This document shows positions 717 to 4,371 of a stretch of DNA of 5,234 bases, piece by piece. Source of the DNA: an uncultured Odoribacter sp. (GTDB lineage Bacteria > Bacteroidota > Bacteroidia > Bacteroidales > Marinifilaceae); NCBI GenBank assembly GCA_905204385.1, contig CAJKZL010000266.1, positions 1 to 5,234 of the forward strand, given 5' to 3'. The translations under genes were made by a program, and so were the position numbers. The notes beneath the pieces are model-generated. The model saw only the letters and a list, made by a program, of their open reading frames with translations, made no database searches and had not been told where the DNA came from. Numbering within the stretch: position 1 is the first letter of the stretch; the number at the start of each line of letters is the position of its first letter.

Positions 717-1157
717 TTATCGGAACTCGTTGCGTACATCGAAGCAGGGGCACATCTTGATAAACTCGTTGGGCGAGATAATGCCGTCACCGTTGCGGTC
801 GGGGCTGGTGTCCCGGTGGCCTATCACTTGTCTGATGTCGGGGTAAACGAGCCGCAGGTCTTCCACCAGGCGGATGAGCGCTTCGCGTTGGGCTTCCGTC
901 CGGGTGTCGGCGGGACGGCCTTCCTAGTCCAGTCCGCCCACGTAGCAGATACCTATGCTTTGGCGGTTCCAGCCCGTGCAATGCGCTCCGTCGAGGGAGA
1001 CATCCCTTCCCGGTTCGATGGTTCCGTCGAGCCGGATTACGAAATGATAGCCGATGGAACGGAAACCGCGCGCACGGTGCCAGAGGTCGATGTCGGCGGC
1101 TGTGAAATCCTGTCCCGCACGGGTGGCGGAACAGTGGATGATAATCGTGTCTCTCAT
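717..1157 (-). pseudogene. N-acetylmuramoyl-L-alanine amidase (Amidase_2/T7-lysozyme type) with in-frame amber codon
   Basis: The family cleaves the lactyl-amide bond between N-acetylmuramic acid and the stem peptide, using one zinc ion. From ATG 1155-1157 the frame gives MRDTIIIHCSATRAG (H8 is the first zinc ligand), then 'SIGYHFVI' (Y37, H38), 'GAHCTGWN' and 'SIGICYVGGLD'. A TAG follows at 924-926 (codon 78). The same frame then continues without other stops to TAA at 717-719. It includes the DTRT motif, 'IGHRDTSPDRNGDG' (H114, second histidine ligand) and 'FIKMCPCFD' (K134 and C136, matching the catalytic Lys and third ligand of T7 lysozyme). Full length would be 146 residues, normal for Bacteroidales amidases of this kind. 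The 77-residue product ending at the amber would lack two zinc ligands and be inactive. The start overlaps the endonuclease stop as TAATG, suggesting coupled translation. It could be a recent nonsense mutation, a sequencing error, or a read-through site. Confidence 0.85.
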
Positions 1158-1933
1158 TACAGTGTCCCCCTTTCTTGTTGGTTGCGGCTTGTGTAGATGG
1201 CGAATCCGAAAGCGATGGCTTCGTCTTCCGACAGTTGGCGGTAATATTGCCGGTTCACCGGATGCTGGACCGGGATGCAGGGGGATTGTACAGGCGGGAC
1301 AGGCCGATGATGGGACGACTGTGAGACAGCCTGAGCGGGAGAAGTCTGCGGAACAGCCGGAGCGGGAGACAACGGTAAGGGTTCTTTCATGATAAAAGCG
1401 TCTCCTCTGTGCTGGCGGACGCGTAAGTTGTGGAGGAGTAGTCGTTCCGGATAGCGCAACTGTAGTCTGAGCCAGTTTATGAATGCGGGATTCATGTGTT
1501 CTCCTTTGCTCATCGCCTGCATGGACGGGTAGGCGCGGAGTGTATTCCCACTTGCGTCCGTTACGGCGCAGGGAACACCCGAATACTTTGAACCCGTTTT
1601 TCCGGGAGGCCGCAATCCCATTCGGATGGCGTGCATTATGTTGTCATGCGCGTCACACCATTCGAGGTTCGACACGTGGTTGTTCAGCGTGTTTCCGTCG
1701 AGGTGGTTTACTTGCGGCAGATGCTTCGGGTTGGGAATGAACGCCTTAGCTACCAGACGATGCGTGTAGTATTTGGTGTAGATTCCTTTTTGCATGAGCT
1801 CTGTCTGCTCGTAGCCTTCTCCTGCGATCGTGGTGCAGAGAATCAGTTTCGACTTGCCTTTAAAACTCAACACCCGTCCATGGTCCGAGACCATGTAGTC
1901 GGGATTTTCTTCGATAAATCTCCAATTTTCCAT
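1157..1933 (-). CDS. NUMOD4/HNH-family endonuclease with proline-rich C-terminal extension
   Basis: The 258-residue protein opens with ENWRFIEENPDYMVSDHGRVLSF, the NUMOD4 pattern (W-x-x-I ... Y-x-V-S-x-x-G-R-V-x-S; about residues 3-25). The HNH_3 core follows at about residues 57-102: 'HRLVAKAFIPNP', 'VNHLDGNTLNNHVSNLEW', then 'HDNIMHA'. The His of NHLDGN and the Asn residues are the expected metal/catalytic set, so the nuclease domain looks intact. Such proteins are usually phage or intron-type free-standing homing endonucleases that nick or cut DNA. A segment 'AVTDASGNTLRAYPSMQAM' (about 123-141) resembles the small DNA-recognition repeats that often follow HNH domains. From about residue 183 the chain turns Pro/Ser/Gln-rich, then ends in a different 30-residue segment (QYYRQLSEDEAIAFGFAIY...), which is unusual for the family. 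It lies 37 bp after the preceding stop and overlaps the amidase start by one base. Confidence 0.88.
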   Translation of the reverse strand: MENWRFIEENPDYMVSDHGRVLSFKGKSKLILCTTIAGEGYEQTELMQKGIYTKYYTHRLVAKAFIPNPKHLPQVNHLDGNTLNNHVSNLEWCDAHDNIMHAIRMGLRPPGKTGSKYSGVPCAVTDASGNTLRAYPSMQAMSKGEHMNPAFINWLRLQLRYPERLLLHNLRVRQHRGDAFIMKEPLPLSPAPAVPQTSPAQAVSQSSHHRPVPPVQSPCIPVQHPVNRQYYRQLSEDEAIAFGFAIYTSRNQQERGTL

Positions 1934-1970
1934 ACTTGATATTGGTAAACGTTAATAAAATTATATTCTG

Positions 1971-2234
1971 TTAAAAAACGGTCTGTTCTTTTGTCTCCGC
2001 GTGGAGAAACGGCGTTTCCTGCATTCCAAGAACGGCGTTTCCCGGTGTATAGAAACGGCGTGGACTGGATATGTTAAACGGCGTTTCTTCCTCCTCCGTG
2101 CGGGGTTCGAGCCTTTCGGCGCAATGGATAAGAAACTCCAATTCTTCCCGGCAGCCTTGAATGGCTTCTTGCAGGGAGTCTACATTGTACTGCCTGCAAA
2201 GGATTTCCCATTCTTCTCGTTCCTGCCGGTTCAT
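1971..2234 (-). CDS. Small charged hypothetical protein (87 aa), coupled to the DUF2693 gene
   Basis: ATG at 2232-2234 is preferred over a longer upstream start because it overlaps the stop of the preceding gene as ATGA, the classic coupled arrangement. The product starts MNRQEREEWEILCRQYNVD and continues with a Glu/Leu/Arg-rich helical stretch (about residues 1-45), then an acidic run (TEEEETPF) and a C-terminal part rich in Pro, Phe and Thr. The tetrapeptide Glu-Thr-Pro-Phe occurs twice. I do not recognise a family. The last third of the gene is made of an array of DNA repeats with a 23-bp period, so the C-terminus may be dictated by DNA-level constraints rather than by protein function. 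Confidence 0.65.
   Translation of the reverse strand: MNRQEREEWEILCRQYNVDSLQEAIQGCREELEFLIHCAERLEPRTEEEETPFNISSPRRFYTPGNAVLGMQETPFLHAETKEQTVF
2001..2092. repeat. Four near-palindromic cores at exact 23-bp period
   Basis: The 8-bp core AACGGCGT occurs at 2008-2015, 2031-2038, 2054-2061 and 2077-2084, each 23 bp from the next. In three copies it extends to AACGGCGTTTC, and the first is GAAACGGCGTTTC, a palindrome around its central base. The bases between the cores (about 10-15 bp) are not conserved. The array lies in the 3' part of the small minus-strand gene, but 23 is not a multiple of three, so the copies are read in different frames. This looks like a DNA-binding array (operator- or iteron-like); function is inferred only from geometry. 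Confidence 0.8.
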
Positions 2235-2602
2235 TCTGTTCTCGTCTTTTCGGGTTCGTCCTCGGCGTCGATGTCCAGAAAGTTTTCCGCATGGAACGTG
2301 CGCCATCCTTTTGCCTCGATGTCGTAGTAGACGACGAACGTGTTTTCCGGTCGTGGAATATAAGGTTGGTGGAAACTGTGTTCGTATCCGGTGAGTGTGC
2401 CGATGGCGTGGCGGACGCTGCCGTCTTGTCTGGTGTAGTGGAAGCGGACATTTCCGTGATGCATCTGCCGGATGAGGGCGCCTATCCGGTGGGCGGTGAC
2501 GAGTGCGTCGTGCCGGTTCATACCATTGTTTTGCCGGATGGCGGCTGCCTGTTTCATGAGCCGCACCCGTTGAAAAGAATGCTCTTCTTTAATCTTGGTC
2601 AT
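2231..2602 (-). CDS. DUF2693 / SH3 beta-barrel fold-containing protein
   Basis: ATG at 2600-2602 gives 123 residues beginning MTKIKEEHSFQRVRLMKQ. The N-terminal half (about 1-55) is basic and helical (ALVTAHRIGALIRQMHHG). The second half holds the DUF2693 signature: 'VRFHYTRQDGSVRHAIGTL' (about 56-74) and 'FVVYYDIEAKGWRTFHAENF' (about 92-111). These match the family pattern V-x-F-x-Y-x-K-x-D-G-T-x-R-x-A-x-G-T followed by Y-x-D-x-x-x-x-x-W-R-x-F. The family is typical of Bacteroidales and has no assigned biochemical function; the fold is predicted to be a small SH3-like barrel. The longer open frame upstream has no family match and crosses the intergenic promoter region, so this start is preferred. 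It is the first gene of the minus-strand operon and ends in an ATGA overlap with the next gene. Confidence 0.85.
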   Translation of the reverse strand: MTKIKEEHSFQRVRLMKQAAAIRQNNGMNRHDALVTAHRIGALIRQMHHGNVRFHYTRQDGSVRHAIGTLTGYEHSFHQPYIPRPENTFVVYYDIEAKGWRTFHAENFLDIDAEDEPEKTRTE

Positions 2603-2630
2603 TGTTCTTCGGTTTATTTTGATTATGAGG

Positions 2631-3781: not shown

Positions 3782-4300
3782 ATGCCATTAATTTACAAAC
3801 CTTATCAGGCAACGCTTGCCAACAAGGAAGGACAGAAATTGTATTATCCCCGTCTGGTGAAATTCGGGAAGGCAGTCAATACGCAGAAAATGGCGGAATT
3901 GATTGCGGAAAAAGCCTCGCTGACGGCGGGTGATGTCCATAATGTGATTCGTAATCTGATGTCCGTGATGCGGGAACAGTTGCTTAATAGCCGCACGGTA
4001 CGCCTCGAAGGCTTGGGAACGTTTACCATGATCGCTAAGGCGAACGGGAAAGGGGTGGAGCTTGAAAGTAAAGTCAGCAGCGCGCAGATTACTTCGTTGC
4101 GTTGTCAGTTTACACCGGAGTATACACGTGAGGCGAACGGAAGCGCTACCCGTGCGCTGACTTCCGGAGTGGAATTTGTACACGTCAAGGATGTGGCGGG
4201 CTCGTTTGTCGCTGCCGATGATTCAGGTGAAGATCCGGACGACGGAAAGAAACCGGATGGCGGAAACGGTAGCGGAGAAGCTCCGGATCCGTCTGAATAA
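3782..4300 (+). CDS. HU-HIG family DNA-binding protein
   Basis: This 172-residue protein starts MPLIYKPYQATLANKEGQ, the usual opening of Bacteroidales HU-HIG proteins (HU-like domain linked to wHTH, Ig or glycine-rich parts). The HU-like core includes 'LYYPRLVKFGKAVNTQKMAE', 'TAGDVHNVIRNLMSVMREQL' (dimerisation helix region), 'VRLEGLGTFTMIAKANG' (about 73-89) and 'LRCQFTPEYTRE'. From about residue 148 the chain becomes an Asp/Gly/Pro/Ser-rich acidic tail (SGEDPDDGKKPDGG...), the glycine-rich variant. Proteins of this class are expected to bind and bend DNA in the nucleoid; specific targets are unknown. ATG at 3782 is supported by family start and the preceding aaggaaacagt. It is followed by a repeat tract and a microprotein frame before the terminator, suggesting one transcript. 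Confidence 0.92.
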   Translation: MPLIYKPYQATLANKEGQKLYYPRLVKFGKAVNTQKMAELIAEKASLTAGDVHNVIRNLMSVMREQLLNSRTVRLEGLGTFTMIAKANGKGVELESKVSSAQITSLRCQFTPEYTREANGSATRALTSGVEFVHVKDVAGSFVAADDSGEDPDDGKKPDGGNGSGEAPDPSE

Positions 4301-4309
4301 TGAGGAAAC

Positions 4310-4371
4310 GGACTTTAAGAGACTGGATTTTAAGACTGGATTTTAAGAGAGGATTTTAAGAGACCGGATTA
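4310..4371 (+). repeat. Degenerate 13-15 bp direct repeats in the HU 3' region
   Basis: The motif GGAnTTTAAG occurs at 4310-4319, 4325-4334, 4338-4347 and 4351-4360, with a partial copy (ggattaaa) at 4366. The spacing is 15, 13, 13 and 15 bp. It lies just after the HU stop codon and before the microprotein frame. It could be slippage debris, a binding tract, or a structured-RNA/translation-control region. Confidence 0.75.

Follow-up and report, generated by a model that had tools for sequence, protein, structure and literature searches.

The four evenly spaced elements at the end of a small gene in the stretch of DNA analysed here (5,234 nucleotides, in the following called the window) are, as comparisons with related genomes show, non-coding DNA sites which merely overlap the end of that gene. 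The array is assigned to a class of repeat arrays in Bacteroides that seems to be defined by a spacing of 22–23 bp and not by sequence. The best explanation, put forward tentatively and as one which could still prove wrong, is that of dispersed repeat blocks of phased candidate recognition sites for a DNA-binding factor. Readings as RNA hairpins, as elements of the REP/RAYT kind, as operators of the surrounding operon or as neutral minisatellites fit less well than phased sites.

Results

The array in the window

A string search of the window found AACGGCGT exactly at 2008, 2031, 2054 and 2077, i.e., with a step of 23 throughout, as had been stated in an earlier reading of this DNA (the sequence-only reading). 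The following bases are TTC at three sites and GGA at 2054. This is the sole exact 8-mer of the window with four occurrences at one step (steps 10–60), and in none of 200 first-order Markov surrogates did an 8-mer recur even three-fold at one step; a chance origin of the array was thus rejected. On the strand of the 87-aa gene the array begins with unit 1 at 2090 and ends with unit 4 at 1999 (Table 1); each unit consists of CAGnnnACGCCGTTT and eight free bases. The consensus of 48 aligned units from 12 arrays reads CAG, three loose bases, the nine-base core ACGCCGTTT (on the strand opposite to AACGGCGT) and eight loose bases. Over 4.5 kb, the window and Bacteroides finegoldii DSM 17565 (L002) share 98.2% identity, the array being identical by eye.

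Table 1. Features of the window and further loci with arrays of the same family. Positions are those of the window; loci are lettered as in the text, with the array of the window as locus A.
Feature	Position	Strand	Remarks
HNH_3/NUMOD4-like gene	1157..1933	-	Downstream of array; operon neighbour outside array
AT-rich stretch	1934..1998	-	Between array and HNH start; similar in relatives, by eye
87-aa ORF	1971..2234	-	Array corresponds to about codons 49–79
Array unit 4 (CAGGAAACGCCGTTTCTCCACGC)	1999..2021	-	Core on + strand at 2008
Array unit 3 (CGGGAAACGCCGTTCTTGGAATG)	2022..2044	-	Core on + strand at 2031
Array unit 2 (CAGTCCACGCCGTTTCTATACAC)	2045..2067	-	Core on + strand at 2054
Array unit 1 (GAAGAAACGCCGTTTAACATATC)	2068..2090	-	Core AACGGCGT on + strand at 2077
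WYL_2 (PF10902) gene	2231..2605	-	Upstream of 87-aa ORF; operon neighbour outside array
HU-HIG gene	3782..4300		Domain match
Locus B			After 45-codon gene
Locus C			Seen 3' to citrate synthase in G001 and G003
Locus D			Seen 3' to rseP in G001 (where nrdG also adjoins), G147 and G088

The cores had been called near-palindromic, a description which holds nominally only. By a column-permutation test, the p values for palindromic units at locus A were 0.21 (G001, the B. finegoldii array identical to that of the window), 0.11 (G147) and 0.06 (G002); they were 0.34 at locus B (G002) and 0.025 at locus D (G001), so that p < 0.05 was obtained in only one of five arrays of the window family. The core of locus A leans to GAAACGCCGTTTC, an odd palindrome; that of locus B leans to GGCTACGCCGTTTT, which is not palindromic, the left arm being different and the symmetry lost. 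Symmetry is thus hardly a well-conserved property of the family, and because of this weak test a reading in terms of a bound dimer is weaker here than for the sister families described below.

Gene context

The HNH and HU-type genes named in the sequence-only reading were recovered as neighbours of the array. The match of the former to HNH_3 is above the cut-off, that to NUMOD4 slightly below; a Lin1244-like gene is also present in the window. The WYL_2 gene corresponds to the DUF2693 gene of that reading, which had compared the geometry of the array with iterons or operators and had pointed to genes of the operon. Under a corresponding proposal the units would be operators or iterons of the window operon, bound by the WYL_2, HNH, Lin1244-like or HU-HIG product. 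The array lies immediately upstream of the AT-rich stretch preceding the HNH start, which may carry the HNH promoter, and the WYL_2 gene, the small gene and the HNH gene are kept together in eight other genomes. In these eight genomes, however, the same gap contains long unrelated tandem repeats (two genomes) or short, low-scoring ones or none (six genomes; TRF), and the unit family of the window also adjoins citrate synthase, rseP and a lipoprotein-like gene, i.e., it occurs at three other loci with other genes beside it. A link to the operon is therefore not supported. Nor is the term iteron, since the loci are chromosomal and their neighbours, citrate synthase and rseP among them, are unrelated genes. 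A role as operators of this operon is very improbable, whereas the term operator array may still apply in the looser sense of phased protein-binding sites.

The two long repeats lying between small gene and HNH gene measure 80 bp × 11.5 (G142; L044, 1714–2631) and 154 bp × 3 (G095; L039, 1747–2212); L039 has in addition a 116-bp array upstream, so that repeats in this gap may be background. Some other features of the window were also recorded. At 717–1157 (minus strand) a stop codon interrupts, in frame, the reading frame for an N-acetylmuramoyl-L-alanine amidase; the portion preceding this codon matches Amidase_2. An inverted repeat with 18-nt arms (83% complementary) is located at 2660–2715, upstream of the WYL_2 gene; TTGACACAT, which is part of it, was found upstream of the gene in G014 too, and the repeat is a possible promoter or operator. 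Downstream of the HU-HIG gene, at 4320–4358, AGACTGGATTTTA is repeated as three copies of 13 bp, of which the third is 85% identical.

An 11-kb GenBank record from human faeces, named "Bacteriophage sp." (MT836335.1; L001), includes locus A together with the array; it may be bacterial chromosomal DNA. A search of viral_contigs with the 87-aa product yielded no relative, and the exact two-core pattern gave two matches there, which lie, by eye, within other repeats.

Constraint on the core at the DNA level

The conserved portion of the 87-aa product comprises about the first 47 residues, and the remainder is mostly the array read as codons. Among homologues (50 of 109 were compared) this portion is common to most, and the tails are divergent, containing ETPF, KRRF and GNAV, i.e., the three frames of the repeat. 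In G014 the frame already ends before the array, and in G147 its stop codon lies inside unit 1. Of the two alternatives raised in the sequence-only reading, conserved cores or conserved amino acids, the former holds for the array.

In orthologous units of locus A (40 unit pairs from five genomes, leaving out G147, in which one unit has 22 bp) the core ACGCCGTTT differed in 32/360 positions (0.089) and the eight-base spacer in 100/320 (0.312). The corresponding values for locus B (60 unit pairs; the six genomes which have four units each, leaving out G011 with three units and G093 with one) were 59/540 (0.109) and 173/480 (0.360). Divergence of the core is therefore 3.3 to 3.5 times below that of the spacer; random choices of 9 of the 23 positions were equally conserved in 1 (locus A) and 59 (locus B) of 20000 draws. 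Since the array of locus B sits in the gap after the stop of a 45-codon gene, coding is an unlikely cause there; the gene facing it had no match in NCBIfam and is lipoprotein-like by reading its start. The lower divergence of the core, together with the non-coding position of locus B, means that it is as DNA that the core is conserved. Constraint at the protein level was rejected on account of the divergent tails, the stops in G014 and G147 and the comparison of core and spacer, which bears out the earlier view that selection on the protein does not explain the cores.

The spacers are 65% and 72% different within arrays; a recent tandem duplication of the 23-mer was rejected for the spacers on these grounds, although turnover of units exists. 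That the spacers are unrelated, as had been stated, is partly wrong: CAG precedes most cores, units 1 and 3 as well as units 2 and 4 are alike in several relatives, and some spacers are common to different loci of the window family. At locus B the core change CGCCTTTT is shared by the adjacent units 3 and 4 in three genomes; such a shared change is a sign of turnover, which could also keep the cores alike.

Other loci of the window family

A two-unit pattern was found in 11 of 149 genomes, several of these having arrays with other cores, and a three-unit pattern in 6 of 158. The reversed patterns, used as control, matched G047, G112, G087, G146 and G121, where they probably hit another 23-bp repeat of the TTTGCCGCA kind (up to 22 matches per strand in G047). 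A model of the 12 arrays, built from sequence only, was searched in the genus and, at E ≤ 0.01, matched 40 of 158 genomes. Other families, some of them with a period of 22 bp, account for many of the weak matches, and weak arrays can be missing, the search having scored the 23 best candidates per genome with strict filters. In 60 sampled genomes of the order, only G001 itself was matched at E ≤ 1e-4.

Four loci are present in the clade of the window (Table 1); near-identical copies of the C and D arrays occur in G108. At locus A, four cores are found in all six genomes with a close homologue. Locus B was inspected by eye in 19 genomes (420 bases each): four units are present in G014, G088, G023, G128, G002 and G003, three in G011, one in G093 and a remnant in G046. 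The window family is absent from this locus in the other 10, so that the array is dispensable there. Loci C and D, which were absent from the set used for building the model, have long inverted repeats, the majority being of the GGCGTTTTAACAC type; these two loci may well be terminators.

The distances of the loci from dnaA were 104, 141 and 205 kb in G001, 179 and 235 kb in G002, and 199 and 279 kb in G023. Assuming that the contig is a closed circle starting at dnaA, they were 166 and 200 kb in G147, 173 and 194 kb in G088 (the match at 173 kb having an E value of 0.0015 only) and 102 and 158 kb in G108; in G128, whose length is known only as a rounded value, they were roughly 0.26 and 0.32 Mb. 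Loci A to D thus lie about 100–280 kb upstream of dnaA (102–279 kb in the six readable genomes). Array and dnaA share a contig in seven of nine genomes searched and are on different contigs in G003 and G014; G014 has one weak match elsewhere (C32, E = 0.0097). No match of comparable score was present elsewhere in those genomes among the 23 best candidates of each. Because species share gene order, the evidence for proximity to dnaA amounts to four loci and not to a dozen; the positions of ori and ter were not visible in a coarse GC-skew sample of G002, and dnaA served as reference.

A wider class of 22–23 bp arrays in Bacteroides

A scan for diverged repeats, in which 38 of 66 positions had to equal those one period on, was applied to 1.475 Mb from G001, G147 and G002. 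The sample is not random, since about 0.7 Mb lie around the family of the window and the two known arrays of G002 were included deliberately; detection needs about four units, so that a preference for this number of units is not deduced from it, and the gene calls in the scans are crude. Outside ORFs, 18 arrays were obtained at period 22, 5 at period 23 and 8 at period 44, and for the other periods between 13 and 41 which are not multiples of three the mean was 1.1, with a maximum of 7 at period 14. Of the arrays with periods 22–23, 23 out of 27 were outside ORFs, which corresponds to about 16 intergenic arrays per million bases; if this density were general, a genome of 5–6 Mb would contain 80–100 arrays, an extrapolation from a sample partly chosen around the window's family. 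The sequence-only reading had suggested a check against random expectation; such an array is beyond chance. Arrays of this period with other cores occur in many intergenic regions of Bacteroides.

In 300 kb of E. coli K-12, a small sample, there were no arrays at period 22 or 23. A likewise small sample of 267 kb from 20 genomes of the order contained one array at period 22, and none outside ORFs. In 80 kb from 22 further loci, taken from additional genomes of the genus, period 22 with four arrays and period 23 with two again ranked first, all others having none or one. With a looser threshold, the arrays of period 22 were situated in tandem (10), convergent (4) and divergent (4) gaps, at an edge (3) and in an ORF (1); those of period 23 in tandem (3) and convergent (3) gaps and in an ORF (1).

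Palindromic units were supported at p < 0.05 in 21 of 31 arrays when unit columns were permuted. The cores vary among arrays, yet they recur as families, for example TTCTCA-N6-TGAGAA in six of seven genomes and AGTTTCA-N6-TGAAACT in all seven; read backwards, both of these sister patterns had no match in any of the seven genomes. The patterns which define the sister families favour consensus sequences. More arrays of 22–23 bp, with GAAACGGTGTTTC-like and ATCAAACGCCGTTTGAT-like cores, were seen in L050 and L051 (G040, G135) and in L013 and L014 (G018, G099). In L100 and L101 some units of the GGCTACACC / GGTGTAGCC arrays are inverted and nevertheless kept in 22-bp register, which is not expected from simple tandem duplication. 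No published description of phased 22–23 bp arrays in Bacteroides was found in open-licence PMC text.

Arm pairing in a sister family and predicted folding

AGTTTCA-N6-TGAAACT units of G147 and G088 were compared (105 positions at 29 loci, 96 distinct 20-mers); the pattern allowed up to three mismatches, which limits the visible variation. Arm pairs 2, 3, 4 and 6 are intact in all 96 units or in all but one. Departures were seen at pair 1 in 27 units (G-T in 13) and at pair 5 in 13 (C-A in 10, T-G in 3), the changes being all one-sided, and no compensated double change in pairs 1–6 was present among the 96 distinct units. Pair 7, which is still within the search pattern, is of the Watson-Crick type in only 34, and the loop pair 8 in 45 versus 38 expected. 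The lack of compensation in the arms fits recognition by a protein better than pairing.

These data bear on the possibility that the palindromic units are transcript hairpins acting as terminators, attenuators or stabilisers. A nested hairpin was predicted in four of six locus-A arrays (G001, G002, G128, G023), with folding z values of -4.5 and -4.3 in G002 and G128, which, by eye, are also the two of 12 sequences with a compensated change at one base pair joining units 2 and 3; the long inverted repeats at loci C and D point in the same direction. The remaining 10 of 12 arrays, however, have z values of +1.2 to -2.2, the covariation score for nested pairing of units 1-4 and 2-3 was equalled in 69 of 500 shuffles, and the arms of the sister units are uncompensated, although part of the changes are G-T. 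Moreover, the arrays occupy tandem, convergent and divergent gaps with, as a class and by eye, no preference for 3' ends, and no Rfam family reached gathering score in the window. An RNA element is for these reasons quite improbable.

Neutral minisatellites, in which slippage yields tandem repeats of 22–23 bp and template switching keeps the palindromes without any selection, would account for differences by whole units and for changes shared by adjacent units; the ordinary intergenic contexts and the frequent lack of the locus B array agree with this. They would not be expected to show the reduced divergence of the core, nor one step common to unrelated cores and absent from 300 kb of E. coli, and the arms of the sister units change on one side and stay uncorrected. 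We regard this explanation as unlikely.

Block copies

Three copies of a sister-family block in G147 align over 169 bp. Two of them, which are 94% identical and in opposite orientation, lie at a distance of 65 kb from each other; the third lacks exactly 22 bases, as a single gap, and similarity stops at the ends of the block. Blocks of the class therefore occur as dispersed copies which differ by single units. Such sharp-ended copies at separate loci could also be produced by a selfish repeat of the MITE or REPIN type, whose blocks are moved by a transposase which acts in trans and needs the core, without gain for the host. Presence or absence and the varying unit number at locus B are compatible with this, as are gene contexts resembling ordinary intergenic DNA. 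Yet a transposase domain of the Y1 type (the RAYT kind) occurs in just two of seven genomes, all of which possess sister arrays; terminal inverted repeats or target duplications were not noticed by eye in the flanks of loci A and B; and the strong matches of the window family are confined to one chromosomal segment, unlike what free transposition would give. A selfish repeat is on the whole doubtful, if by no means negligible.

Discussion

The array is a non-coding element made up of four units of 23 bp, in which a conserved core is combined with about eight free bases. It is one copy of a dispersed family, among several families in Bacteroides with a common spacing of 22–23 bp. This distance is about two turns of the DNA helix. 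In the preferred reading, that of phased recognition sites, each core could be a recognition site, and a factor, perhaps binding cooperatively, would occupy neighbouring sites on one face of the DNA. Blocks of sites would multiply through copying and would gain or lose entire units; the overlap with the 87-aa gene would arise only because the reading frame of that gene enters a block. The putative binding protein, and any effect on the host, belong to this proposal.

If the arrays are indeed phased recognition sites, they would represent, in a major group of gut bacteria, a layer of DNA organisation or regulation of which no description was found; since the step is fixed while the cores change, this reading is open to direct tests. 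If they are selfish, they would be a class of repeats that follows a spacing rule of its own and for which no mobiliser is known. In either case, tails of proteins reading into such arrays should not be annotated as protein. A more far-reaching version, to which we would give little credence, is that several families of phased arrays mark the Bacteroides chromosome, each with its own factor, and that the family of the window is a landmark on the origin side, comparable to parS and matS but unlike them.

Comparison with known systems

The sites matS and parS are short, near-palindromic sites of chromosome organisation with regional distribution. The strong matches of the window family in the segment near dnaA would provide an analogy, although the Bacteroides sites form arrays instead of single sites and differ in sequence. 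In CRISPR arrays a short constant part alternates with a variable part at a fixed step, and the window array likewise alternates constant core and variable spacer; its cores have, however, only 9–15 bp and its spacers about 8 bp, the spacers are inherited between species and not replaced, and no Cas domain was found among nine proteins of the window. From plasmid iterons, which lie beside a replication initiator on a replicon, the window family differs by its chromosomal position, on the contig of dnaA in seven of nine genomes, with loci B, C and D beside other genes.

REP elements are described by a GTAG or CGTC tag at one end of the unit and an association with RAYT transposases (PMC3733652, PMC2817692, PMC3116915). 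REP, BIME and REPIN sequences have short palindromic intergenic units, regularly spaced clusters (BIMEs) and many copies per genome. Units of this kind are seen in the class of arrays (palindromic at p < 0.05 in 21 of 31), but in the window family in one of five arrays only; the tag is absent from the consensus of the 48 aligned units of the window family. The Y1 domain (PF01797) is present in two of seven genomes versus sister arrays in seven of seven, and in Bacteroides the step of 22–23 bp is common to families with unrelated cores.

Porphyromonas gingivalis is a member of the Bacteroidales. Its BrickBuilt MITE is described as consisting of imperfect 23-nt tandem repeats, dispersed and intergenic, with 1 to 22.8 units (PMC4596501, PMC5771137), a degenerate consensus AGAYCATARTATCCTCTCRTRTG, no spacer, and a leader and tail with short terminal inverted repeats (PMC4596501). 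The unit consensus of the window is, by eye, unrelated to AGAYCATARTATCCTCTCRTRTG, and the array found here consists of four units and includes free spacers, no leader or tail ends being noticed by eye at loci A and B. With its period of 23, its dispersal and its variable number of units, the window array resembles BrickBuilt, which is the nearest known kind found.
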